A DNA stretch of 35,438 bases from Paracoccaceae bacterium (lineage in GTDB: Bacteria; Pseudomonadota; Alphaproteobacteria; Rhodobacterales; Rhodobacteraceae): NCBI GenBank assembly GCA_007120685.1, contig SKNG01000261.1, forward strand, positions 1-35,438, written 5' to 3'. The translations under genes were made by a program, and so were the position numbers. Shown one piece after another: positions 447 through 31,088 of the stretch (position 1 is the stretch's first letter; every line of letters starts with the position of its first letter). The notes below the pieces were generated by a model that had not been told where the DNA came from, ran no database searches, and was given only the letters and a program-made list of their open reading frames with translations.

Positions 447-499
447 CAGCCAGCTTCCTTATTTCCGCCAGATTTTCGCGCAGACTGGAACGGGCGAAA

Positions 500-3420
500 C
501 GAGTGATCGAGTTGCCCGTGAAATCGCTGCGGCCATCAGCGCCGCAGACGTTGCAGAGGCCCGCAAGGACCCGATTTCCCATCAACCCGTGATCTCGTCG
601 CGCGTTCGGCTGCCGGTGGCTGCGTCCCTCAAGGGATTGCCACCGTCTGCCGGATCGCGATCGCAGGTGTTGAGGACGACCAGACCGTTTCGACCGTCGT
701 TCTGGCATCGGGGCAGCCGTTCGGCCCGCTCGCACGCTATCGTGCGTTCGGGAAAGGCGAACGCGCAGCTCGTGATGCGGAATGTCTGACGGAACCGGTT
801 GTCGGTCGGATGTGTCGCGGCGGTCTGGCTGCCGTCTGCAAACCCTGCCCGGAAAGGGGCGGTTGCAGCAGCAACAGGCACCGTGACGCATGGAGAGAGA
901 AGGAAGGAGACAAAGACTGCTTGTGACGTGAAACCGACTGTCGAGCGCCCGGCCTGACCCCAAGGGGAAGGAATGGGACATCGAAGGTTCGGCGCAACGT
1001 CCAGGGCTTGCGGACCGAAACCGGCCGCCCGCTGCCATCGGCACCCGTCAGGGGGTCGGACCGGCAGTCGGCCAACGGTTTACCGGACATCCCGCGTCTG
1101 CCCTTGCCCGTCGCCCTGTCGCACCCCGTTCTGGCTTTGCCAGGGCAAGGGGCGGCAGCGCGGGGCAGAGGTGGAACGGGGGTTCGGGGGCGGTTTTCCG
1201 CGTGTGGTGGGGTATGCATGTCATGCCTTTCCCGTGCGACGGAGAGCGGCTTGTTCAGAGGGTCACGGATGCGACCGAACTGACGATGATCGGATTGTTT
1301 CCGATGGTGGACGGAAGGATCACGCGCCTGGCCAGACTGCGCCGCGGATGCCGGCTTGCAAACCCCGAAAGGGCGGCGCAAGCTTGGACATCCCGGGTCG
1401 GTTCCTGGTAGCGATGGGCGTGGTTTTCCGGCACTGGACAGGGGTTCAGGGCAGACTGGTGACGGTCTGGCGGGTAACGGGGCAGGCGAAGCCGCCCGGT
1501 GATACCGCCGCCGAAACCGGCCCTTGCCAGGAACACCTGCCAGGGCAACGGATGAAGCACCCATTGCGACGGGTCGAACCAAGATGCCTGCACCTGCCAG
1601 CCCCTTTGGGCGAACGGGCGCAAGGGATCAAGGGGACGGCCCCGACGGGTGGAAAGACGGTCCAGAGCCGAGACGGAAGCACGATCCGTTCGCGGGCACC
1701 GGGGCGAGGAGGCGGGCGCTTATGCGTCAGCCTTCAGGCCGCCGACCTGTGAACCGGATCGGGGCAACCGGATCGACGCTGGGATGTCGTGAAAAGGTCA
1801 CGCTTGCGGCGCTGCTGCCTGTGTCACCGGGTAACCTGGAAAAGGTTGCCATGGTGGCGGGGCAAGGGGCGTCGCAGGAAACGGACCGGCGGTCAACGGA
1901 CCGGACAGACAAAGCCGAGAGCACCGAGAGTCAGCACCAGCTGAGTCGATGCCACCCGGGCCTGGCCAACCCCCGGCAAGGTAACGGTGTTCAACGCCAA
2001 GTCTGTACCGCCCAATGACCGCAGGTTCACTGCGCCGATGCTTGCTGACGCAGCATCCCGAAACGCACGGTCAAGTTGCCGTTGCACCAGGGATGCCGCC
2101 GAGAGGATCGGCAATCGACCATCACACGGCATCCCGTTCCGGATCCGGCGTACCCCGACCGCGAAGCAAACCGGCGGTGGGTGTGAAGACAAAGGTGCAT
2201 GAACAATGCCCCCTTCGCCCCATCGCCCGCAACGTGGATCGAGATCGCCGATTCGGCAACGGACAGTCAAACCCGCCTGACCAGGACCGCACCCGCGAGA
2301 CCAGACGCCAACCGCCCTGAAGGGTGGCAACGGCAGGGATCGACGGCAAGGCCTGTCACGGTGGGTGGTTCATCCACTGCCACGGCAGGGGTTTCGGCAA
2401 GGGCCGGTAACGGTGGCGGCACGCCGGCGGGGATGACTTTCCCGTCGCTTGTCGGACCAGAACCATCCTGCGCTGAAATCCTGTCCGGTGTCGGCAAACC
2501 GTGCCCATGGCACCAGGACCGACCCGCGATGTTCCGGCAAGCGCCGCCCCTGAAGGGCACGCAAACCGGCATCCGGGGAGGGGACTGGCCAGCCACGTGG
2601 CCTGGCCCGACACCGACGGAGGCAAGACGACAATCGGCAGCACGGACGCAGCCGGGACCGGACGGACAGACCGCTCCGGTTCGCTCGGGCAATAGCATGC
2701 AGGTCATGCCTTGCCCGTGCGGCAAACCGCCCCGGAACCCCGCGTTCCGCCTCTGGCCCGCCTTGCGGCCCCGCACCCCGGCACATGCCCGGACGCGGTG
2801 GCAGGCATGGCGCGGTGCAGGGCAGACACGGGATGACCGGAAAACCCAAGGCCGAATGCCGGCGCGGTCTCTGACCGGCTGGCGATGGCAAGGGCGAATG
2901 GTTTCGGCCCAAAGGCTGTGGACGGCACGGCGAACCGGAGATGGATCAGGCCACCCCCTTGGGGAAAGGCAGGGTGCAGCGCCGGTTGGCACCGTGTGGC
3001 AGGCAGTCGAAGGCTTCAACCTTCTTGAACCATGTGCATGGCGGCTTAGCGCCGCTTGCGGCTGTTCCTCATGGGGAGCGGTGCGCGGGCGGTGGCAAAG
3101 GCAGCCCGGCATATCCGGCTGACAGACGGAACCGAAGGACGGACGGCAAAGCGGCCGCGCCTCGCCAGACCCGGGCAGCGAAAGCTGCTGGCAGGTCAGG
3201 CGGTGCGCACCGGCGCCGGACGAAGGCGGAACGGTCTGGAAGCCCAGGGCACCGGCGAAAGCGGTCCGGACGGCGATACCGACCCCGACAAGGGGGCAAG
3301 GTCATCGGCGACCGGGCGCGACGACGAGCCCATGGCAAGATGAAGGAGATGGGGCGCCTGCGGGCCTCCATTCATTTCCGGTTGCTCTGATACGAGATCC
3401 GTTTCATTGACTCGGGTCGC
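500..3420. repeat. Giant imperfect inverted repeat (palindrome), two arms of about 1.4 kb
   Basis: Reading the left arm (about 500-1926) against the reverse complement of the right arm (about 1985-3420) gives a continuous alignment. Anchor pairs are: 519-523 with 3402-3406; 556-565 with 3359-3368 (10 identical bases); 680-689 with 3230-3239 (10 identical); 1083-1103 with 2820-2840 (19 of 21); 1345-1401 with 2519-2575 (57 bases without a gap, about 75% identical by hand); 1516-1528 with 2396-2408 (13 identical); 1891-1895 with 2016-2020; 1905-1910 with 2001-2006. The paired coordinates add to 3925 at the outer end and 3911 near the centre, so arm lengths have hardly drifted. About 58 bases at 1927-1984 separate the arms. 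Transcribed from either strand it would fold back into one very long interrupted stem. I do not recognise the family. Confidence 0.85.
1927..1984. other. Central spacer (loop) of the giant inverted repeat
   Basis: This is the stretch left between the innermost pairs that I can align (caccg at 1922-1926 with cggtg at 1985-1989). It has some local self-complementarity of its own, such as GGGCCTGGCC near 1968. In an RNA it would form the terminal loop region. The exact limits are uncertain by about 10 bases. Confidence 0.6.
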
Positions 3421-3430
3421 ATGCGCAATG

Positions 3431-3480
3431 ACGAAAAACGGGCCTTGTGATAGGCCCGTTTGCACGCGCCTTGGAAGGCG
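3431..3480. terminator. Two-hairpin terminator-like module at the right end of the palindrome
   Basis: The first hairpin has a perfect 9-bp stem: AAACGGGCC at 3436-3444 pairs with GGCCCGTTT at 3453-3461 around an 8-base loop. A second hairpin, CGCCT/AGGCG, follows at 3467-3480. Read on the minus strand, the first stem is followed directly by TTTTT, so it looks like an intrinsic terminator for leftward transcription. On the plus strand it has only a short GTTTG tail, so termination there would be weaker. The same two-hairpin module occurs at 30976-31022 in the opposite orientation. It begins about 15 bases after the palindrome arm ends. Confidence 0.6.
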
Positions 3481-3557
3481 ATTAACTCCTGCGCCTGCCG
3501 AAGCGATCAGCCGGAAACGGTGTGACATCCCTCGCAGTACTGTCGCCAGGCGGGCGG

Positions 3558-3586
3558 TTGTGCCAGGTCCGTAGTGCCCCTATCTA
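3558..3586 (+). promoter_or_regulatory. Candidate sigma-70 type promoter for the ParB-like gene
   Basis: TTGTGC at 3558-3563 and TATCTA at 3581-3586 are separated by 17 bases, a good housekeeping-sigma match. The start of transcription would fall near 3593. That leaves a leader of about 25 bases before the ATG at 3618 and so supports that start over the ATG at 3594. Confidence 0.45.
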
Positions 3587-3617
3587 ATCCGGCATGACCC
3601 GCGACAGGAGCGCCGAC

Positions 3618-5003
3618 ATGCCCCCCAGTGCCGCCCAGCCAGTCAGCACGGCCGCGCCCCTGGCGCAGCCGCGGCCGGAGTCAGAGCGCGCCGCCATGCT
3701 GGCCGAGGCCGCTGCCGGCCGCGAACCCACGTATTTCGTCCCCATGCCCGACGGCATGCGCCGGCTGCCGGTGGTGCATGTTCCCGCCGACCTGCCGGTC
3801 TACCGGTTCGACAACGGCCGGCTGATCGCCGAACTGCACGAGCATGTGCATGCTGCCGGCGGCGACTTCGACGCCCTGCGCCGCAAGGCCCAGAGCGGCG
3901 AGACCCAGGCGCTGCTGCATCGGCTCCTGATGGCGCATGCCGGCGATGAGCGCGGGCCGATCCTGCAGGAACTGCGCCGCCTGCGCCAGCAGACGGAACC
4001 GCTGCTGGTCACCGCAGGCGGAGAAGTGATCAACGGCAACCGGCGGCTGGCAGCGATGCGCAGCCTTCTGGCCGAGGACGCCGGTCACTTCGACTGTTAC
4101 GCGCAGGTGGCCGTGGCGGTGCTGCCAGGGGACTGCCCGCCGGCGGATATCGACTTCATCGAAGCCGCGCTGCAGATGGCACCGGAAACCAAGCTGGGCT
4201 ACGGCTGGGTGAACCGCCGCCTGAAACTGCGCCGTCAGGTGGAGGAATTGAAATTGCCGCGCGACTGGGTGATGGCAGCCTATCAGATCGACGATCCGGC
4301 GCAGGTGGACCGGGAACTGGGCGAACTGGCCCTGGCCGAGCAGTTTCTGCGCGATCGCCTGCATCAGCCGGATCACTTTGCGGCGATCGCCGATGCCGAG
4401 GCGCTGTTCGTGGCCTTGCACGCGCAGCTGCAGGACCTGGCGCCCGCCCTGCGCGCGGTGTGGCAGAGCATCGGTTTCGCGATGATCCAGGCCCGTGACG
4501 CCCTGATCAAGGAGATCGGCGGCAGCTATCCGTTCGAGCCCGCAGTGCCGCGTCACCTGCCCAGCCTGGCGCTACGCCGATTCGCGCAGGAAAAACTGCA
4601 TGCGGAAACCGAAACCGAGGATGAAGGGGCGGCGCCGTCCGGCGGGTTGCTCGACGACCTGCGCGCCTTTTTCGACGGTTGCGGGCCGGATGACACCGAT
4701 GCGCTGCGCGACCTGACCGAGGTGATGCATACGATCCGTGAAGAGCAGCGCGAGGCGGAAAAGCCTGCAGTCATGCTGCAGCGGGTGCGGCGGGCACGCG
4801 CGCAGATGGACCGGTTGACGCCCGAGCGCCTGACCGCCGGGCAACGCAACGCGCTGCGCAGCGAGGTGGCGGCGATTCAGGCGCAGGCTGCCTATCTGTT
4901 GGGCGAGGCACCTGAGCATCGCTTCGAGCAGCGCAAGACCACGATGGTGAGGGCCGTGTCCGGCTACCTGCGCCGCTGGCGCGAGACCTCGGCAGGGGGC
5001 TGA
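3618..5003 (+). CDS. ParB-fold-like protein of unknown function, 461 aa
   Basis: I chose the ATG at 3618 because AGGAG at 3606-3610 lies 7 bases upstream. The earlier in-frame ATG at 3594 has no ribosome site. Residues 134-150 (GGEVINGNRRLAAMRSL) match the ParB/sulfiredoxin-fold signature, in which a hydrophobic strand leads into G-x-x-x-x-N-G-x-R-R-x-x-A. In ParB-type proteins this segment is part of the nucleotide-binding pocket. The preceding RFDNGRLIAEL (63-73) resembles the first part of such domains. The rest (about 190-461) is helical, charged and unfamiliar, with no clear helix-turn-helix. It is not the chromosomal ParB, because there is no parA beside it. It stands alone, next to the giant inverted repeat and convergent with a transglycosylase. 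Possible roles are DNA or RNA binding, nuclease, or nucleotide hydrolase. None is shown by the sequence. Confidence 0.7.
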   Translation: MPPSAAQPVSTAAPLAQPRPESERAAMLAEAAAGREPTYFVPMPDGMRRLPVVHVPADLPVYRFDNGRLIAELHEHVHAAGGDFDALRRKAQSGETQALLHRLLMAHAGDERGPILQELRRLRQQTEPLLVTAGGEVINGNRRLAAMRSLLAEDAGHFDCYAQVAVAVLPGDCPPADIDFIEAALQMAPETKLGYGWVNRRLKLRRQVEELKLPRDWVMAAYQIDDPAQVDRELGELALAEQFLRDRLHQPDHFAAIADAEALFVALHAQLQDLAPALRAVWQSIGFAMIQARDALIKEIGGSYPFEPAVPRHLPSLALRRFAQEKLHAETETEDEGAAPSGGLLDDLRAFFDGCGPDDTDALRDLTEVMHTIREEQREAEKPAVMLQRVRRARAQMDRLTPERLTAGQRNALRSEVAAIQAQAAYLLGEAPEHRFEQRKTTMVRAVSGYLRRWRETSAGG

Positions 5004-5057: not shown

Positions 5058-5963
5058 TCAGGGCGCCGCCGCCGCAGCCCGGCTGGCGCTGCTCGGCCCC
5101 GGGGAGGTGGCAAAGACACAGGGGTCGCCCGGCAGCTCGACCGGGGTGGCGCAAAGGCCGCGCGCCACGTTCCAGGCCGCCAGCACGCGGGGCACGTAGT
5201 CGCGCGTCTCGGCAAAGGGGGGCACGCCGCCGTTGCGCCGCACCGCGCCCTCGCCGGCATTGTATCCGGCAAGCGCCAGCACCAGATCGCCGCCGAATTC
5301 GCCCAGCAGCCAGTCCAGATAGGCGATGCCGCCGCGCAGGTTCTGCGCCGGGTCGAAGGCGTCGGAGACTTCGAACCGGGCCGCCGTGGCGGGGATCAGC
5401 TGCATCAGCCCCTGCGCGCCGGCGCGGCTGACCGCATCCACCCGCCCGGCCGATTCGACCGAGATGACCGCCAGCGCCAGCGCCGGCGATACCCGCGTGC
5501 CGATGCTGGCGCGCAGAATGTCGGGCCCGTGACGGTCGGCGATGGCCTGCAGATGGGACAGGCGCGGCTCTGGGACGCGGTCAGCGCCGTCCGGCGGGGC
5601 GCCGAGGGCCTCCATCGACAGCAGGAAACGGCCGTCACGCGCCTCCAGATCCGCCGGGACCCGGGACCAGAACCAGCCGAAGCGCGCCGTCGCGGGGGTG
5701 GCCGGCGCGCCGTTCCGGGGGGTGGTGTTCTCGGCTCCGGGGGATGCGGGCCGCGGCGCCGACGCAGCGGGCGGCGCGATTCGGCGCGCCTGCTCCTCGG
5801 GGTCGATTTGCACGGTGATGCGCGGGCCGGTGCCGCCGGGGGCGACGGTGACACGACGAAAGGTGAAATCCTCTTCGGCTGCCCAACCGGCCGTTGTGGT
5901 GCCGGCAAGGGCCAACACCAGCGGCAAGACGCCAGAAGCCAGAAAACGGGTTGCGCTGCTCAT
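5058..5963 (-). CDS. Lytic transglycosylase, SLT domain, exported
   Basis: The protein has 301 aa. It begins with a signal peptide (hydrophobic stretch about 9-27, AWA before AEEDF), so it acts in the periplasm. A Pro/Ala-rich linker (about 60-95) precedes a soluble-lytic-transglycosylase domain from about residue 140 to 270. The catalytic Glu is E170 in ISVESAG, followed by the family motifs GAQGLMQLIP (182-191) and AGYNAGEGAV (232-241). Such enzymes cleave the MurNAc-GlcNAc bond of peptidoglycan to 1,6-anhydro products. It is divergent from the flp pilin gene and convergent with the ParB-like gene. Transglycosylases near trans-envelope machines often open the wall for assembly, so a link to the tad pilus is reasonable but only inferred. 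The ribosome site before ATG 5963 is weak. Confidence 0.88.
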   Translation of the reverse strand: MSSATRFLASGVLPLVLALAGTTTAGWAAEEDFTFRRVTVAPGGTGPRITVQIDPEEQARRIAPPAASAPRPASPGAENTTPRNGAPATPATARFGWFWSRVPADLEARDGRFLLSMEALGAPPDGADRVPEPRLSHLQAIADRHGPDILRASIGTRVSPALALAVISVESAGRVDAVSRAGAQGLMQLIPATAARFEVSDAFDPAQNLRGGIAYLDWLLGEFGGDLVLALAGYNAGEGAVRRNGGVPPFAETRDYVPRVLAAWNVARGLCATPVELPGDPCVFATSPGPSSASRAAAAAP

Positions 5964-6274
5964 GCCCGATCTTTGTTTTTCTTAAACCCTTGTGACAGAT
6001 ACTGCGACGAATCGCAATTCTCTTGCAGCGTTTCGGCCCGGCGATGGGCCAGAAATCGGAAACGCTACGCGCAGCTTTCAGCGAATTGTTTCCGCTAGGA
6101 AAATACTGCGCGATGATTTCCCGCAAGTGCCACGCAAAGACCGTAATCCGCCCCATTCCGGCCACGGTTCAGGGTCAAACAGTTTCCAGCCAAGCGGGCA
6201 CCGACCCCAACCAAATCAACCTTCGGTTCCCAGAGCGCGGCGTCAACAGAGTGCAATGAAACTGGAGAGAGCAC
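5964..6274. promoter_or_regulatory. Divergent control region between the transglycosylase and flp, with a nested hairpin
   Basis: There are 311 bases between two divergent genes, so promoters for both must lie here. I could not pick convincing -35/-10 pairs. A nested inverted repeat occupies 6027-6066: AGCGTTTC (6027-6034) pairs with GAAACGCT (6059-6066), and inside it GGCCC (6035-6039) pairs with GGGCC (6046-6050). It could be an operator or a leader structure. The sequence ATGAAACTGG occurs twice, at 6256 and 6275, the second copy being the pilin start. Confidence 0.5.
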
Positions 6275-6490
6275 ATGAAACTGGTTGCGATGATCAAGAA
6301 CTTCCACAACGACGAATCGGGCGCCGTGACGGTCGACTGGGTCGTACTGACCGCCGCCATCGTCGGCCTGGGCATCGCCGTTGTCGCCTCGGTCTCGGGC
6401 GGTGTCGGGACGCTGGGCGACAACATCTCGAGCGCGCTGAGCGGTGCCTCTGTCGCCACGCCGGGCGGCGAAGACGGCCTGGGCTTCTGA
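6275..6490 (+). CDS. flp: Flp-type major pilin prepeptide
   Basis: The protein is 71 aa, a usual size for Flp pilins. A short basic leader (1-16) ends in ESG, where the prepilin peptidase should cut between G16 and A17. A hydrophobic helix (about 17-41) follows, and a small, Gly-rich tail ends the protein. Classical Flp pilins have Glu-Tyr five and six residues after the cut; here the same place holds D21-W22, a conservative variant. GGAGAGA at 6264-6270 is the ribosome site. It is the first gene of the tad locus and is followed by a strong terminator. It is therefore probably expressed far above the machinery genes. The mature pilin polymerises into the adhesive Flp pilus. Confidence 0.9.
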   Translation: MKLVAMIKNFHNDESGAVTVDWVVLTAAIVGLGIAVVASVSGGVGTLGDNISSALSGASVATPGGEDGLGF

Positions 6491-6519
6491 TCGGCCGCGC
6501 CTGATCGAAGCAAGAGAAG

Positions 6520-6555
6520 AAAAGAGCCATGTCGAAAGGCATGGCTCTTTTTTTT
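6520..6555 (+). terminator. Strong intrinsic terminator after flp
   Basis: A 12-bp perfect stem, AAAAGAGCCATG (6520-6531) with CATGGCTCTTTT (6540-6551), has an 8-base loop and an unbroken T run to 6555. It should end most transcripts that start at the flp promoter and set the ratio of pilin to assembly proteins. Confidence 0.93.
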
Positions 6556-6707
6556 GTTTTCGCCCCTGACGGTGCCGACGCTGATCTACATGGGGGCGGT
6601 CATAATTTGGTCCAAGTTGTCAGCCATGCTGCCGTCATGGCGGCAATGCTGCCCCGGTCTGGAAAGCGTCCTGTTCCGGTTAGGTTTTTTCGCTGAAGAG
6701 GTGAATC

Positions 6708-7541
6708 ATGCGCGTGACACAACTGGCCGTTCTGGGCATCGGCGTGGCCCTGGCAGGCTTCGGGGTCTATATGGCGCAATCCTATGTCGCACAGACGCAG
6801 GCGGCGATTGCCGCCGCGCAGGCCCAGCGGGACAATCAGCCGGCAATCGAAACGCGCGAGGTGCTAGTCGCCGCCCGGGCGCTGCGCTTTGGCGAGCCGA
6901 TAACCGAGGATGTCGTGCGCGCCGTGCCCTGGCCGGCGGACGCCCTGCCGCCGGACGTCTTTCAGGACATGGCAGCGCTTCTGCCCGTAGCCGGACGCCC
7001 GCGCGTGGCGCTGCGCGCCATCGAACCGATGGAACCGCTGATGCGGGTCAAGGTCAGCGAGCCCGGCCAGTCTGCCGGCATTGCCGCCACGCTTTCGCCG
7101 GGCATGCGGGCCTTTACCATCCGTATCGATTCCTCCAGCGGCATCTCGGGCTCGCTGCGTCCGTCCAACCTGGTTGATATATACTGGACGGGGCGGGGCC
7201 GCGACGGCGAGGTGACGCGGCTGATCGGCAGCAATGTGCGGATCATCGCGCTGGACGAGAACGCCGATCAGGACCGCGATTTCACCGGCGTGCCGCGTTC
7301 GGTCACCATCGAGGGCACGCCAGAGAAGGTTGCCACGCTGGCTCAGGGGCAATCGACCGGACGGTTGTCATTGTCGCTGGTGGGGCTGGACGATGCGTCC
7401 GACCTGTCAACCTTCGAGGTGGACCGCCGTTCGCTTCTGGGTTTTGCGCCAGAGGCCGCGCCGACACAAGAGGAACGCTGCAGCATCCGCACCCGGCGCG
7501 GCAACGAGGTGGTTCTGATCGAAATCCCCTGCACCAACTGA
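6708..7541 (+). CDS. cpaB: Flp pilus assembly protein CpaB/RcpC
   Basis: The protein has 277 aa. A single N-terminal hydrophobic segment (about 5-22) anchors or exports it, so it works in the periplasm. A SAF domain (about 47-115, beginning TREVLVAARALRFGEPI) is followed by the RcpC-type region with SGSLRPSNLVDIYW. Two cysteines near the end (C258 and C275) could form a disulphide. CpaB is thought to help assemble or gate the CpaC secretin. AGAGGTG sits just before ATG 6708. It follows the flp terminator, so it needs read-through or its own promoter in the 217-base gap. That gap also holds a short CATGCTGCCGTCATG-type imperfect repeat near 6625. Confidence 0.9.
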   Translation: MRVTQLAVLGIGVALAGFGVYMAQSYVAQTQAAIAAAQAQRDNQPAIETREVLVAARALRFGEPITEDVVRAVPWPADALPPDVFQDMAALLPVAGRPRVALRAIEPMEPLMRVKVSEPGQSAGIAATLSPGMRAFTIRIDSSSGISGSLRPSNLVDIYWTGRGRDGEVTRLIGSNVRIIALDENADQDRDFTGVPRSVTIEGTPEKVATLAQGQSTGRLSLSLVGLDDASDLSTFEVDRRSLLGFAPEAAPTQEERCSIRTRRGNEVVLIEIPCTN

Positions 7542-7844
7542 TCCGCCGGGTAGTCCCTGCCTGGTACGATCCTCGCCCGTCCGCGTCTGGCGCGGCGGGC
7601 GTGCAGGAAAGGCAGGTCGGGTGCGTCAGCGACACGAGTTGTTGCCGTCGCGCCACGGTCTAGCCCCTCTATCTAGCGTCTGCTGGCCCTTTACATACCA
7701 CAAATCGAACATTGATCGGCGAAAGACTTTAAAAGCGCCCTACAAGCATTTGATTCTTGCAATAAAGATCGAATGCATGCATCTTTCTGATCCAAAGGGG
7801 GCCGCTAGACGCCTCAATGTTGGTGATCGAAGAGGCAGGATCAC
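7542..7844. promoter_or_regulatory. Intergenic region cpaB-cpaC with palindromes, probable second promoter region
   Basis: This is a 303-base gap inside an otherwise tight locus. The right half is clearly AT-richer than its surroundings (7685-7800), as promoter regions are. It contains the perfect 10-bp palindrome ATGCATGCAT at 7773-7782, inside a wider inverted repeat AAAGAT (7764-7769)/ATCTTT (7781-7786). I see no clear -35/-10 pair and no gene. Confidence 0.45.
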
Positions 7845-9260
7845 ATGAAATCGGGTAAACTTTTCGCCGCAGGCCTGCTGGGGCTGTCGCTTGCCGGTCT
7901 GGTGGCGCCGGTGGCCGTGCAGGCACAATCGCAGGCGCTGCGCATCACCAATGGCAGCTTCAGTCAGACCCTTGAAGTGGCAATGAACCGCGCGGTGGTC
8001 GTCGACAGCGAGGTCCCCTTCGCGGAACTCTCCATCGCCAATCCGGGCATCGCCGACATTTCCACCCTGTCGGACCGGTCGATCTATGTGCTGGGCAAGG
8101 CGCCGGGGCGCACCACACTGACCATCCTGGCGCCCGATGGCAGCTTAATTTCCAACGTCGAGGTGCGGGTCACACCGGACCTCGCCGAATTCCGCGAGCG
8201 CCTGCGCCAGATTCTGCCCGGCGAATCGATCGAGGTGCGCTCGGCCAATGATGGTATCGTGCTGTCCGGCAACGTCACCTCGATCTCGCGGCTGGACGCG
8301 GCGCTGCAGCTTGCCGAACGCTATGCGCCGGGGCGGGTGTCCAACCTGATGAGCGTCGGCGGCACCCAGCAGGTGATGCTGCGCGTGCGGTTTTCGGAAG
8401 TGCAGCGCAACGTGGCCCGCAACCTGGCGGCCAGCCTTGCCGTTGGCAGCACCAGCCCTTCAGGTTCGTTGCTGGGCAGCGGGGGCTTTTCTTCCGTCGA
8501 TACCGCGCGTGCAGCGCTTTCGGGCAACCCGACGGCCTCTGGCGCGCCGCGTGCCGGTGTCATCAGCGGCTCGCTGGGCATCGGCAGCGTGCAGTTTCAG
8601 GTGTTGCTGGAAGCGCTGGAAAGCAACGGCCTGGCGCGCACCTTGTCCGAGCCCAGCCTGACCGCGCTGTCAGGCCAGGAGGCGGACTTTCTGGCCGGTG
8701 GCGAATTCCCGGTGCCGGTACTGGCCGAAACCGGGCAGGTGACCATCGAATACCGCCCCTTCGGCGTGCAGCTGGCCTTCACCCCGCGCGTGCTCGACGG
8801 CGATGTGATCAATCTGATCCTCAACGCCTCGGTCAGTTCGATCGATCCGTCAACGGTGGCCGCTACTGGTGGCGGGATCCAGATCCCGGCCTTCCGTCGC
8901 CGCCAGACCTCGACCACGGTGGAACTGCGCGACGGCGAGAGCTTTGCCATCGCAGGATTGTTGCAGGATGATTTCCGTGGCGGCACCCGCGCTGTGCCCT
9001 GGCTCAGCGAAATTCCCGTGCTGGGTGCGTTGTTCCGCAGCGCCGAATACCAGCGTGACCAGAGCGAGCTGATCATCTTCGTCACCGCCCATCTGGTTAC
9101 CCCCACCCGTGGCGAGGCACTGATGATGCCCACCGACCGGGTGCGCCTGCCGAACGAAAGCGAGCTGTTCCTGTCCGGCCGGCTGGAAGGTCGCAACGAC
9201 CCCGCCGCAGAGGTGGCACGCCAGGACTTTCGCGGTGGCTACGGCTACGTGATGGATTGA
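7845..9260 (+). CDS. cpaC: Flp pilus secretin CpaC/RcpA
   Basis: The protein has 471 aa with a cleavable signal peptide (about 1-28, ending VQAQ). A secretin N-domain (about 40-110, with VPFAELSIANPGIADI) and a BON-like segment (about 112-185) lead into the secretin domain (about 235-430). The domain ends with the family signature VPWLSEIPVLGALFRS. It forms the ring in the outer membrane through which the pilus passes. GAGGCAGGA lies ahead of ATG 7845. The stop overlaps the region upstream of the next gene, whose ATG is 30 bases on. Confidence 0.93.
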   Translation: MKSGKLFAAGLLGLSLAGLVAPVAVQAQSQALRITNGSFSQTLEVAMNRAVVVDSEVPFAELSIANPGIADISTLSDRSIYVLGKAPGRTTLTILAPDGSLISNVEVRVTPDLAEFRERLRQILPGESIEVRSANDGIVLSGNVTSISRLDAALQLAERYAPGRVSNLMSVGGTQQVMLRVRFSEVQRNVARNLAASLAVGSTSPSGSLLGSGGFSSVDTARAALSGNPTASGAPRAGVISGSLGIGSVQFQVLLEALESNGLARTLSEPSLTALSGQEADFLAGGEFPVPVLAETGQVTIEYRPFGVQLAFTPRVLDGDVINLILNASVSSIDPSTVAATGGGIQIPAFRRRQTSTTVELRDGESFAIAGLLQDDFRGGTRAVPWLSEIPVLGALFRSAEYQRDQSELIIFVTAHLVTPTRGEALMMPTDRVRLPNESELFLSGRLEGRNDPAAEVARQDFRGGYGYVMD

Positions 9261-9289
9261 TCAGGACGCAGGGAACGAGGGAGCGCCCC

Positions 9290-9907
9290 ATGCCGATAAC
9301 CCGCCGTTTCTTCCTGGCCGCGCTGGCCGCCGTTCCGGTTGCCGCCTGCGACAGGGCTCTTCCGATGGGCGAGGACGGCCTGATCGGAGGGCTGGGCGAG
9401 CCGTCCGACCACAACCTGAGGGTGCAGACCGGGCAGTTGCCCTATGCCATGAACCTCGGCGAGCGCTTCGCCCGCGAAGTGCCGACCACGATCAACTTTG
9501 CCTTCGACAGCGCCGCGCTGGATGCCGAGGCGCAGGGGATCCTGCGCCGTCAGGCCGGCTGGATGCGGCAGTTTCCGGAACTGTCTTTCCGGGTCTTCGG
9601 CCATGCCGATCTGGTGGGGCCATCGGCCTATAACCGCCGGCTGGGGATGCGCCGGGCACGCGCCGCCGTGGCCTATCTGCGCCGTCAGGGCGTTGGCCAG
9701 GCAAGGCTGGAGGCCGTTGTCTCGTTGGGCGACACCCAGCCGTTGATCTTTACCCGTGGGCGCGAGCGACAGAACCGGCGGGTTGTGACCGAGGTGTCGG
9801 GCTTCATGCAGCGCCATCCCACGGTGATGAGCGGCCAGTATGCGCAGATCATCCAGCGCGAATTCGTCGAAAGCGCGACCTGGGAACATCCCTTGACCCG
9901 GCGCTGA
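9290..9907 (+). CDS. OmpA-family lipoprotein of the tad locus
   Basis: I chose ATG 9290, with AGGGAG 6-7 bases ahead. An in-frame TTG at 9257 would overlap cpaC and has no ribosome site. The protein has 205 aa. Its lipoprotein signal ends in VAAC, with the lipidated Cys at C20. An OmpA C-terminal, peptidoglycan-binding domain runs from about 67 to 165, with TINFAFDSAALD and the later HADLVGPSAYNRRLGMRRA segment. It probably ties the secretin complex to the wall. In Caulobacter-type loci the position after cpaC is held by cpaD. Here this gene stands there, an arrangement I know from Rhodobacteraceae. The hairpin at 9939-9985 follows. Confidence 0.87.
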   Translation: MPITRRFFLAALAAVPVAACDRALPMGEDGLIGGLGEPSDHNLRVQTGQLPYAMNLGERFAREVPTTINFAFDSAALDAEAQGILRRQAGWMRQFPELSFRVFGHADLVGPSAYNRRLGMRRARAAVAYLRRQGVGQARLEAVVSLGDTQPLIFTRGRERQNRRVVTEVSGFMQRHPTVMSGQYAQIIQREFVESATWEHPLTRR

Positions 9908-10240
9908 CGGACCGCACGCGCAGCAATCCTGTTCCGCGCCGATGACGCCGCGCCCGGCCGCAAGGCCGCGGCGCGGCGTCATCGGCTTGCGCGCGTCGGG
10001 CCTGGGCAGCATGTGCCGACGGCTGATTTCCACAGTGGCGACAAGCCTGTCCTGAACAGGGAAATCGTTCGCGAATTTACCCGTTTTGGCCCCAATCTCG
10101 CCAAGATCATCGTCAAACATCAAGGCATGCCAGGGTACTTGCCGCTGGCCGACCCGCCACATTTGCGGGCCGGGCAGTGGTTCAGGCCCCGATCCTGACC
10201 AGTGCCTCTTGCCGGAAGGCATGCAAACGAGGAGACGATG
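9908..10240. promoter_or_regulatory. Intergenic region before cpaE with a terminator hairpin
   Basis: These 333 bases hold a very stable hairpin (9939-9985, listed separately) and the short repeat CCTGT/ACAGG near 10047. A 61-codon open frame at 10013-10198 has no ribosome site and no recognisable product, so I do not call it. A promoter for cpaE onward is expected here but I could not place it. Confidence 0.45.
9939..9985. terminator. Very stable hairpin with GCAA tetraloop after the OmpA-type gene
   Basis: The 16-base arm CCGATGACGCCGCGCC (9939-9954) pairs perfectly with 9970-9985. A further 5-bp inner stem (CGGCC/GGCCG) is closed by a GCAA tetraloop at 9960-9963, with one bulged C. There is no T run, so it may stabilise the 3' end of the upstream mRNA or assist factor-dependent termination. 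Confidence 0.7.
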
Positions 10241-11491
10241 ATGTCCAGCACTGCCGCGATGAAGCCGGAAACGGCCCCCATCCGCGCCTGCACCGTATCG
10301 CGGGACGTTCAGAATTTCGATCTGCTGATCGAGGACATGGAAATGGAACTGGGCGAGGCCTGGGGCGATCTCACCCTGTCGAACGCCATGAAGTTCCTTG
10401 ATCAGCCCGACGCCCGCAATCTGGAATTCCTGGCCATCGCGCTGGATGACGAGGATGCGGGCAGCATGCCGCAGATCGAGGCGATCATCCAGCGGGCGCG
10501 CGGGTTGAACATCGACGTGATCCTGATCGCCGAGGAACTGGGACCCATTGTCCTGCACCGGCTGTTGCGCTTCGGCGCCAGCGATTTCGTGCCCTATCCG
10601 CTGCCGGAAGGCGCGCTGCATGACGCGATCGAGCGTACCCGGCAGGCTAGCTTCACCCCCGGTGCCGGGGCCAACGGCACGGCGCCCCCGCCTGCGCCGC
10701 ATCTGGGCGGCAAGAAGGGCACCGTCCTGGCGGTGCAACCGCTGGCCGGCGGTGCCGGGGCCACAACCTTCGCGGTGAACCTGGCCTGGGAACTGGCCGG
10801 TCAGGGCGGCAACGAGGCGCCTTCCGTCTGCGTGCTCGATTTCGACCTGCAGACCGGCTCGGTTTCCACCTATCTGGATCTGGCGCGCACCGAGCGGGTG
10901 TTCGAACTGCTGTCGAACACCGCCGTAATGGACCGGGATTTCTTCCTCAGCACGCTGCAGACCTATAACGAGAAGCTGAAGGTGCTGACCGCCGCTGCCG
11001 ACATGCTGCCGCTGGATCTGATCACGCCTGACGATATCGAACGGGTGGTCGAGATGGCGCGGGCCAATTTCGACTTCGTCGTGATCGACATGCCCGGCAC
11101 CGTGGTCCAGTGGACCGAGACCGTGCTTTCCGCGGCCGATTGCTATTTCGCCATGATGGAGCTGGACATGCGCTCGGCGCAGAACGCGCTGCGCCTGATC
11201 CGCGCCCTGAAGGCCGAGGAACTGCCGATGGACAGCCTGCGCTATGTCCTCAACCGCGCGCCGAAATTCACCGACCTTTCGGGCAAGGCCCGCGCCCGCC
11301 GAATGGCCGAAAGCCTGGACATCTCTTTCGAGATGATGCTGCCCGACGGCACCTATCAGGTGACCCACGCCAATGACCACGGCCTGCCGCTGGCGGAGAT
11401 GGCACCGAAGAACCCGCTGCTGAAGGAAATCCGCAAGACCGCGCAGGCGATCATCGAGTCGCGCCGGAACGCGGCCCAGGCCGCGGCCTGA
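10241..11491 (+). CDS. cpaE: Pilus localisation ATPase CpaE/TadZ
   Basis: The protein has 416 aa from ATG 10241. GAGGAG at 10229-10234 is 6 bases ahead; the ATG at 10238 is the alternative. Residues about 15-135 form the receiver-like N-terminal domain, and about 158-400 a MinD/ParA-type ATPase. The P-loop reads LAGGAGATTFAVN (168-180): both lysines of the usual deviant Walker A motif are missing, as in other CpaE/TadZ proteins. It is therefore likely to bind nucleotide weakly or act mainly as a scaffold. The next motifs, VLDFDLQTGS and VVIDMPG, are intact. It marks the cell site where the tad machine is built. It is followed by cpaF after 11 bases. Confidence 0.92.
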   Translation: MSSTAAMKPETAPIRACTVSRDVQNFDLLIEDMEMELGEAWGDLTLSNAMKFLDQPDARNLEFLAIALDDEDAGSMPQIEAIIQRARGLNIDVILIAEELGPIVLHRLLRFGASDFVPYPLPEGALHDAIERTRQASFTPGAGANGTAPPPAPHLGGKKGTVLAVQPLAGGAGATTFAVNLAWELAGQGGNEAPSVCVLDFDLQTGSVSTYLDLARTERVFELLSNTAVMDRDFFLSTLQTYNEKLKVLTAAADMLPLDLITPDDIERVVEMARANFDFVVIDMPGTVVQWTETVLSAADCYFAMMELDMRSAQNALRLIRALKAEELPMDSLRYVLNRAPKFTDLSGKARARRMAESLDISFEMMLPDGTYQVTHANDHGLPLAEMAPKNPLLKEIRKTAQAIIESRRNAAQAAA

Positions 11492-11502
11492 GGGGGACAG
11501 AC

Positions 11503-12968
<1,466 letters not shown>

Positions 12969-12972
<4 letters not shown>

Positions 12973-13937
12973 ACATCGATCCAACCCTCGTCATCTATAT
13001 CCTGATCTTCGCCGGCATCCTGCTGCTGGTCGAGGCGATCTATCTGATGATCTTTGGCCGCTCGATCAGCCTGCATAGCCGGATGAATCGCCGCCTGGAA
13101 AAGATGGATGCCAAGAACAGCCGGGTCGAGGTGATCGAATCGCTGCGCAAGGAGATCACCCAGCACCAGCGCAGCACGGGCATTCCCTTCTACTCGCTGC
13201 TGGCCGAAAAGGCGCTCAAGGCGCAGATTGCCTTTTCGCCCCTGATGCTGATTTTGATGATGGTGGTCCTGGCCGGTACCGCCTTCCTGGCGCTCAGCCT
13301 GGCGACCGAGGCCGCGACCAGTTTGCGCGCCGGGCTGTCGGTGGTGATGGGGGTGGGGGCGATCTGGTTCTGGGTCTCGTCCAAGGCCAACAAGCGGCTG
13401 AGCATGATCGAGTCACAGTTGCCCGACGCCATCGATCTGATCGTGCGCGGGCTGCGCGTGGGCCATCCGTTCAGCCATGCGCTAAGCGCCGCCGCGCGCG
13501 AGATCGCGGACCCCTTGGGCACCGAACTGGGCCTGATCGCCGACGAGGGCGCCTATGGCCGCGATCTGGGCGAGGCGCTGATGGCCTTTGCGCAACGCAT
13601 GGACATGCAGGACCTGCGTTTTCTGGCGGTGGCAGTCAGCATCCAGCAGCAGTCCGGCGGCAATCTGGCCGATATCCTGGACGGGCTGTCGAAAGTGGTG
13701 CGCGCCCGGTTCAAGCTGTTCCGGAAGGTCAGGGCCATTACCGCCGAGGCGAAATGGTCCGGCATGTTCCTGTCCGGCTTTCCCATCGTGGCGATGCTAA
13801 TGATCTCGCTGATCAAGCCGGACTATTATGACGACGTCAAGGAGACCGCGCTGTTCGTTCCCATGGCGCTCGTGGTGTTCGCCCTGTTGATCGTGAACGT
13901 GCTCTACATGCGCAAGATGGTCAACATCAAGGTCTGA
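12969..13937 (+). CDS. tadB: Inner-membrane platform protein TadB
   Basis: The protein has 322 aa. Membrane segments are at about 5-28, 77-97 and 100-125, with two more near the C-terminus (about 265-285 and 295-315). Between them lies a type II secretion F domain (about 155-265), with DAIDLIVRGLRVGHPFSHAL and later SIQQQSGGNLADIL. With TadC it forms the platform on which CpaF acts. The start ATG 12969 overlaps the cpaF stop by 4 bases. Confidence 0.93.
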
Positions 13938-13953
13938 GCGGAGAGGACAGCAG

Positions 13954-14931
13954 ATGGATACGTTTTTTCAGGGTCTTACGATGCCGCTTGGGATGACCGT
14001 TCTGATCGCTGTGGCGGGGATGTTCCTGGTCGGTTTCTCGGTGGTCGGTGGCCGGCAGGAAAGGCCCGATCCGATGACCCGCCTGCGCGAACAGGTGCGC
14101 ACCGGCCGTTCCGCCCCGCGCAGTACGCTGTCTCGGCGCGAGGAGTCGAACGAGCTTCAGAAGCGGCTGGAAAAGTTCAAGTCGTTCCTTGAACCGGCCA
14201 CCGAACAGGAACGGGATGCCGCGCGGCTGGAAATGATCCAGGCCGGCTACGTGGGCCGCAACGCGGTGCGCGATTTCCACGCTGCGAAATTCATCATGGC
14301 GCTCGGCGGGTTGTTGCTGGGGCTTGCCTTCTTCATGGTGACGTCGGACGATCAGGAACGGTCGCTTCTGATGACCGTGCTGCCGATCATGGCGCCGACG
14401 CTGGTGGGCTATTACGTGCCCATCTACTGGGTCAACAAACGCCGCGCCGAACGTCAGGATCAGATTGCCTCCGGCTTTCCGGACGCGCTGGACATGCTGC
14501 TGATCTGCACCGAGGCCGGGCAATCGCTGGATCAGTCCATCAATCGTGTCGGCAAGGAATTGCAGGCCGGCTACCCGGCACTGGCCGAGGAATTTGCCAC
14601 CGTCACGCATGAGACCCGCGCCGGCAAGGACCGGATGGAAGTGCTGAAGGACATGGGCGAACGCTGCGGTAACCCGGATATCCGATCCTTTGCCACGGTG
14701 ATGATCCAATCGGCGACCTATGGCACCTCGGTCGCCGATGCGCTGCGCGTCTATGCCGCCGAAATGCGTGACAAGCGCGTCATGCTGGCCGAGGAAAAGG
14801 CCAATGTGCTGCCTACCAAGTTGACACTCGGCACAATGCTGTTCACCGTGCCCCCGTTGCTGATCATCCTGGTCGGCCCCTCGGTGCATGGCGTGGTCAC
14901 TATGCTCGGTTCGTCAGATTTCGGCCTGTGA
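13954..14931 (+). CDS. tadC: Inner-membrane platform protein TadC
   Basis: The protein has 325 aa and is paralogous to TadB. Hydrophobic segments lie at about 8-28, 112-130, 135-155 and 290-315, and the T2SS F domain is at about 165-285 (DALDMLLICTEAGQSLDQSI). It pairs with TadB in the inner membrane. A GGAGAGGA ribosome site lies in the 16-base gap after tadB. The stop TGA overlaps by one base the ATG of the next gene. Confidence 0.93.
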   Translation: MDTFFQGLTMPLGMTVLIAVAGMFLVGFSVVGGRQERPDPMTRLREQVRTGRSAPRSTLSRREESNELQKRLEKFKSFLEPATEQERDAARLEMIQAGYVGRNAVRDFHAAKFIMALGGLLLGLAFFMVTSDDQERSLLMTVLPIMAPTLVGYYVPIYWVNKRRAERQDQIASGFPDALDMLLICTEAGQSLDQSINRVGKELQAGYPALAEEFATVTHETRAGKDRMEVLKDMGERCGNPDIRSFATVMIQSATYGTSVADALRVYAAEMRDKRVMLAEEKANVLPTKLTLGTMLFTVPPLLIILVGPSVHGVVTMLGSSDFGL

Positions 14932-30975: not shown

Positions 30976-31022
30976 ACGCGCCTTCGAAGGCGCGTGCAAA
31001 CGGGCTTTCGAAAGCCCGTTTT
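30976..31022 (+). terminator. Two-hairpin terminator module after comEC (second copy)
   Basis: The first hairpin is ACGCGCCTT/AAGGCGCGT (30976-30995). Two bases on is the second, AAACGGGCTTT/AAAGCCCGTTT (30998-31021), ending in TTTT. It is perfect where the copy at 3431-3480 is partly degenerate; the two copies lie in opposite orientation. Confidence 0.75.
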
Positions 31023-31088
31023 GCGCCCATGCGGTAATGCGTGAACCAGTCGGTTGAAGACCCTGTCGCGCCTCGGCAAGGCTTGCGG

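Follow-up and report, generated by a model that had tools for sequence, protein, structure and literature searches.

A standalone ParB-like protein in a Paracoccaceae genome with relatives in restriction-type operons

What does a ParB-like protein do when no parA gene accompanies it? Clamps of the ParB type act in the segregation of chromosomes, in nucleoid occlusion and in the silencing of plasmid genes. The window analysed here, a stretch of 35,438 nucleotides from a Paracoccaceae draft genome, encodes a 461-aa protein that carries the ParB-type motif GGEVINGNRRLAAM and has no adjoining parA. A first-pass annotation, made from the letters of the DNA, described it as an orphan ParB-fold protein; both the open reading frame and its clear signature were verified in the sequence, and the description is right in essence, though it misses a predicted DNA-binding domain, a link to restriction operons and the genome-wide occurrence of a nearby hairpin. 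The gene and its ribosome-binding site are located as follows.

3618..5003, + strand: solo ParB-like gene, from ATG 3618 to the end of the stop codon at 5003, 461 aa (defined from the sequence and from orthologues L008, L009, L010, L018, L069 and L073)
3605..3609, + strand: AGGAG ribosome-binding site for ATG 3618 (read from the sequence)

The start at ATG 3618 is favoured over an alternative in-frame ATG at 3594 because AGGAG lies 8 nt before it; the sequence upstream of ATG 3594 offers no comparable ribosome site. The gene therefore has a ribosome site of its own, as first proposed, while the promoter proposed alongside it found no backing, with no sigma-70-like site upstream in a scan that covers alphaproteobacterial promoters poorly. 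Near-full-length orthologues with 69-75% identity are present in three other assemblies (L008, L009 and L010), and more diverged ones (47-55% identity) in genomes G200, G310 and G763. Comparison of the window gene with its 69-75% orthologues gave dN/dS values of 0.19-0.26, and the four closest solo genes gave 0.15-0.26 pairwise; the gene is under purifying selection, and these values and identities mark it as more than a chance open reading frame. Within its own genus, represented by metagenome-assembled genomes labelled Pararhodobacter and Rhodobacteraceae, the gene occurs patchily (five of 19 genomes) and is therefore accessory.

The predicted structure of the protein divides into the following regions.

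3726..4175, + strand: residues 37-186, ParB/Srx-type NTP-binding fold (AlphaFold, pLDDT mostly 74-96; Foldseek; hhalign)
4206..4355, + strand: residues 197-246, predicted ParB/KorB-type helix-turn-helix region (AlphaFold, Foldseek and an HTH_ParB match in a relative)
4356..5000, + strand: residues 247-461, C-terminal half, entirely helical, its long helices at 360-398 and 407-427 (AlphaFold)
4911..4991, + strand: residues 432-458, additional basic amphipathic helix at the C terminus, chiefly a feature of the solo clade (AlphaFold)

The AlphaFold model, built on a 19-row alignment, reached a pLDDT of 81.7 and a pTM of 0.71. The 15 best PDB matches found with Foldseek are all ParB or ParB-N structures, several of them nucleotide-bound, with the CTP-gamma-S-bound ParB of Myxococcus at the top, and hhalign aligned the region of residues 37-186 to a RepB/ParB-like protein at 91% probability. 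The TM-scores of these ParB matches, normalised by query length, are only 0.15-0.29, as would be expected if the domain arrangement differs. The longer Foldseek alignments, of about 200-300 columns, continue past the nucleotide-binding part and also cover the DNA-binding helices of ParB, which correspond to predicted helices at residues 197-210, 215-221 and 227-246. A distant relative from one of the operons described below, modelled separately (pLDDT 83), matched KorB (8qa9, E 1.6e-4), Noc and Spo0J, and also the KorB operator-binding domain (1r71) with weaker E-values and high probability. One family member matched Pfam HTH_ParB at 1.8e-4. The structure search thus backs the ParB-like fold first read from the motif, and the accompanying statement that no helix-turn-helix is recognisable is probably wrong, since the window model aligns into the DNA-binding helices of ParB and the operon model also matches KorB and Noc structures. 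Judged by these models, the window protein very probably combines a ParB-type fold with a helix-turn-helix. In its predicted structure the NTPase fold precedes the helix-turn-helix, as in canonical ParABS ParB, and the fold together with a GxxR P-motif places it in the broad ParB-CTPase fold superfamily.

The C-terminal half of about 215 residues was rightly set outside familiar families, as profile searches and Foldseek matched it to no named family or known fold. By alignment, it is common to the operon relatives along most of its length. The terminal helix at 432-458 (hydrophobic moment of about 0.5) is missing from the operon model and is reduced in one orthologue (L073).

Three motifs line the predicted nucleotide pocket.

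3813..3821, + strand: Box I, N66-G-R68, with N66 and R68 nearly invariant in family alignments
4035..4046, + strand: Box II P-motif GNRR (GxxR), residues 140-143, located by alignment
4161..4175, + strand: Box III remnant E182-x-x-L-Q186 in place of ENxQR, with E182 and Q186 invariant in alignments

Box II reads GN[R/T]R instead of GERR in all seven solo and 29 of 30 operon members, so that the GxxR P-motif is retained in 36 of 37 family members, with the catalytic Glu of GERR replaced by Asn in the window protein; the ENxQR of Box III is missing in all 37. In Caulobacter ParB, the substitution E102A of the GERR Glu yields a protein that binds CTP without hydrolysing it and stays locked on DNA, whereas N136A and R139A weaken or abolish CTP binding (PMC8367383). 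Loss of the GxxR Arg is described as abolishing NTP binding by other ParB-fold proteins in the text of the orphan-ParB survey (PMC12704722). Compared with these Caulobacter mutants, the retained GxxR makes NTP binding by the window protein plausible, and loss of the GERR Glu makes CTP hydrolysis doubtful, with a rate that would be slow or nil. With ENxQR lost, the pocket might also be empty or bind another NTP.

A survey of gene neighbourhoods, proposed in the first-pass annotation along with structure and profile searches, connected the protein to an operon family. Profile searches of genomes at order, class and phylum level, plasmids, phages and IMG/VR contigs recovered about 30 distinct distant relatives on plasmids, prophages and chromosomes, mainly in Alphaproteobacteria and also in Streptomyces and Streptococcus. 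The window protein is homologous to these operon versions along most of its length, with 19-33% identity and E-values down to 1.2e-33. Their genes follow the order methyltransferase, restriction endonuclease, ParB-like protein (about 390-475 aa), SNF2 helicase (about 590-660 aa) and NOV_C/DUF3883, the last presented in the literature as a new REase domain (PMC3710099). In every operon-type relative with a long enough contig, the SNF2 gene lies directly downstream of the ParB-like gene, overlapping or nearly touching it, and the NOV_C gene comes next; nearly all have a methyltransferase and/or endonuclease gene near this trio. The methyltransferases are of N6/N4 or C5 type, and the type II endonucleases fall into three or more groups: BglII-like, BanI/DpnII-like and another PADLOC REase_II type. 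ParB-SNF2-NOV_C is thus a constant core around which endonuclease and methyltransferase types interchange. Plasmids and phage-like contigs carry operon copies, also within the bacterial family of the source genome. Streptococcus prophage Javan191 and related viral contigs (L017, L088-L094) have the version whose endonuclease is BanI/DpnII-like and whose methyltransferase is of C5 type. A more distant pair, a 331-aa ParB-like gene adjoining a 492-aa helicase gene (L079:7523-9993), is possibly a further branch of the family. PADLOC models cover the neighbour genes in the operon, and none matched its ParB-like protein. Among the papers covered by a full-text search, none was found to describe the operon, and a keyword search found no SNF2/NOV_C restriction operon in the main text of the orphan-ParB survey (PMC12704722). 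A restriction-modification operon with this core is apparently undescribed so far.

The window gene itself has no SNF2 and NOV_C genes downstream. In a maximum-likelihood tree of seven solo and 30 operon proteins, a branch with 100/100 support separates the solo proteins, as a single group, from all the operon proteins. This solo clade is common to two alphaproteobacterial families. A homologue of the operon helicase was found in none of the seven solo genomes and in all five operon control genomes. The source genome, which is 80% complete, has no NOV_C domain above threshold; five of the six other solo genomes are 99-100% complete. Searches with tblastn found no traces of helicase, NOV_C, methyltransferase or endonuclease within the window, the neighbourhood survey recognised no other operon parts beside solo genes, and no solo copies were seen among the plasmids and viral contigs searched. 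The solo protein therefore likely descends from an operon-type ParB-like subunit. With a tree rooted at its midpoint only, loss of partners is the likelier direction of change, from operon to solo, because the operon is spread widely and reaches two other phyla. Partner loss might also describe a decaying remnant of a restriction operon, with which the missing partner genes and about 3 kb of ORF-poor DNA upstream would agree. This reading is disfavoured because purifying selection was found: the gene is intact in seven genomes, its dN/dS is about 0.2, its motifs and C-terminal half are conserved, and its clade spans two families, all of which makes decay very unlikely.

The surroundings of the gene bear on whether it could serve partition. 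Downstream of it come a convergent gene for a lytic transglycosylase and then a tad/Flp pilus locus (together at 5058-14931, the latter with RcpC, secretin, OmpA, CpaE, CpaF and TadB), and the solo gene shares no operon with either. Its orthologues mostly have different and varied neighbours; the exception is L008, with the same transglycosylase and tad genes and two extra genes between. No parA adjoins the solo gene, as first noted; one has to go about 5 kb, to cpaE in the pilus locus, to reach a ParA-like gene. Upstream, the region at 450-3560 comprises about 3.1 kb without a credible ORF and contains an imperfect long inverted repeat (945-1563 versus 2362-2977, 626 nt, 71% identity). Before it, a partial Fic/DOC protein is encoded at 81-446 (PF02661, E 1.5e-5), whose motif HPYVDGNGH has His at the usual Fic Arg. 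The palindrome reported next to the gene is a hairpin.

3436..3461, unstranded: hairpin AAACGGGCCT-N6-AGGCCCGTTT with 10-bp arms, a dispersed element

The palindrome does exist, and its core has about 25 further copies in the genome (about 26 in total), in many of which a short run of T follows the stem, while none of its kind was found upstream of the five other solo genes checked; on both grounds it was rejected as a ParB site. The surrounding region (3424-3480) is a dispersed repeat, because it recurs with 82% identity at 30979-31033 and, over 92 nt, with 80% identity on a different contig (L123). The hairpin resembles a terminator or a REP element and is unspecific to the solo gene. The ParB fold and the predicted helix-turn-helix would suit a protein that partitions an integrated element or a replicon, yet the solo genes have no parA neighbour and no palindromic site common to their upstream regions, the sequence of the window protein has no ParA-binding motif, and the genes lie in chromosomal pilus or sugar-nucleotide neighbourhoods. 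Such a function is very unlikely. The protein departs from a canonical ParABS ParB in having no adjoining parA and in carrying GNRR and ExxLQ in place of GERR and ENxQR.

We favour, with a probability of roughly 0.5, a standalone NTP-switched DNA-binding clamp with a regulatory or marking role. The ParB-type nucleotide pocket and the ParB/KorB-type helix-turn-helix would together provide NTP-switched DNA binding, and the long helical C-terminal half probably dimerises the protein into a clamp. Its ancestor would have been a ParB-like subunit encoded in a multi-gene operon of restriction type; there, the most likely role of this subunit is to load on DNA and to license the translocase and nuclease or set their position. 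In the solo lineage the partners would have gone and the ParB-like protein been kept by selection, most likely as a clamp on DNA by which chromosomal sites are regulated or marked, in the manner of Noc, KorB and VirB. More tentatively, the ParB-like clamp, SNF2 translocase and NOV_C nuclease may form the constant core of an unnamed restriction or defence type, with type II endonuclease and methyltransferase as interchangeable modules; the window protein would then be its domesticated clamp subunit, acting by itself on the chromosome and locked because NTP hydrolysis has been lost.

With its patchy distribution and varied neighbours, the solo gene could be accessory or defence cargo just as well as encode a regulator of the chromosome. 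As a defence component, the solo protein would sense or mark invading DNA and cooperate with a host nuclease or translocase encoded elsewhere; alternatively, it would itself be a nuclease or an NTP-depleting enzyme. All distant relatives sit in restriction-type operons, the gene is patchy within its genus, and ParB/Srx proteins of conflict systems have been proposed as nucleases or NTPases (PMC10853773); but solo copies were not seen in the viral contigs and plasmids searched, no operon part was recognised beside them, and no nuclease motif was identified in the protein. Taking both versions together, we consider a defence component unlikely. A decoy or immunity protein would join or block incoming operon-type SNF2/NOV_C complexes and so shield the host or resident elements. 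This would suit a protein with the architecture of an operon subunit and no enzymatic partners, as would the spread of the operon by plasmids and phage-like contigs, some of them in the same bacterial family, but the 19-33% identity to the operon versions makes cross-assembly doubtful and the idea improbable.

A conserved operon in which a ParB clamp is joined by an SNF2 motor, a protein resembling nucleases and restriction enzymes that can be exchanged would represent a new use of such clamps in DNA defence, and the solo clade would illustrate a defence subunit turning into a protein of the host. Because the core stays constant while the enzymes are swapped, this question is open to standard plasmid and phage assays.

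Single-protein searches of Pfam, NCBIfam, PADLOC, PHROGs and PDB sequences gave nothing above threshold, and no confident match to a well-studied housekeeping family emerged. PF02195 found no chromosomal ParB of the host in the incomplete genome. DndB, GmrS (DUF262) and DdrB-ParB (PF18763) also belong to the ParB superfamily, the first two within DNA-modification or restriction systems; the DGQHR or DGQQR motif of DndB and GmrS occurs in none of the 37 family members, and PF18763 scored 12.9 bits against a Pfam cut-off of 27.6. The GCHR active-site cysteine motif of sulfiredoxin is likewise absent from all 37. An FrmR match (E 0.0035, profile positions 376-429) reflects helical similarity unsupported by the fold search and was treated as chance. 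HEPN-ParB fusions are known (PMC3710099), and inspection by eye showed no HEPN-type motif in the C-terminal half.

The orphan ParB-like proteins, as presented in the text of PMC12704722 (PNAS 2025), resemble the window protein in having a ParB fold without parA and a diverged Box III. With KorB, Noc, VirB and chromosomal ParB it shares the NTPase fold followed by a helix-turn-helix domain and the GxxR P-motif, and ParB, KorB and Noc provide the best PDB matches. In contrast to these known clamps, it has GNRR rather than GERR, lacks ENxQR and parA, and ends in a long helical half that matches no known fold. The operon-linked ParB-like subunits are homologous to it over most of their length and have the same predicted architecture, from which the window protein differs in being encoded by a standalone gene and in carrying the extra terminal amphipathic helix.
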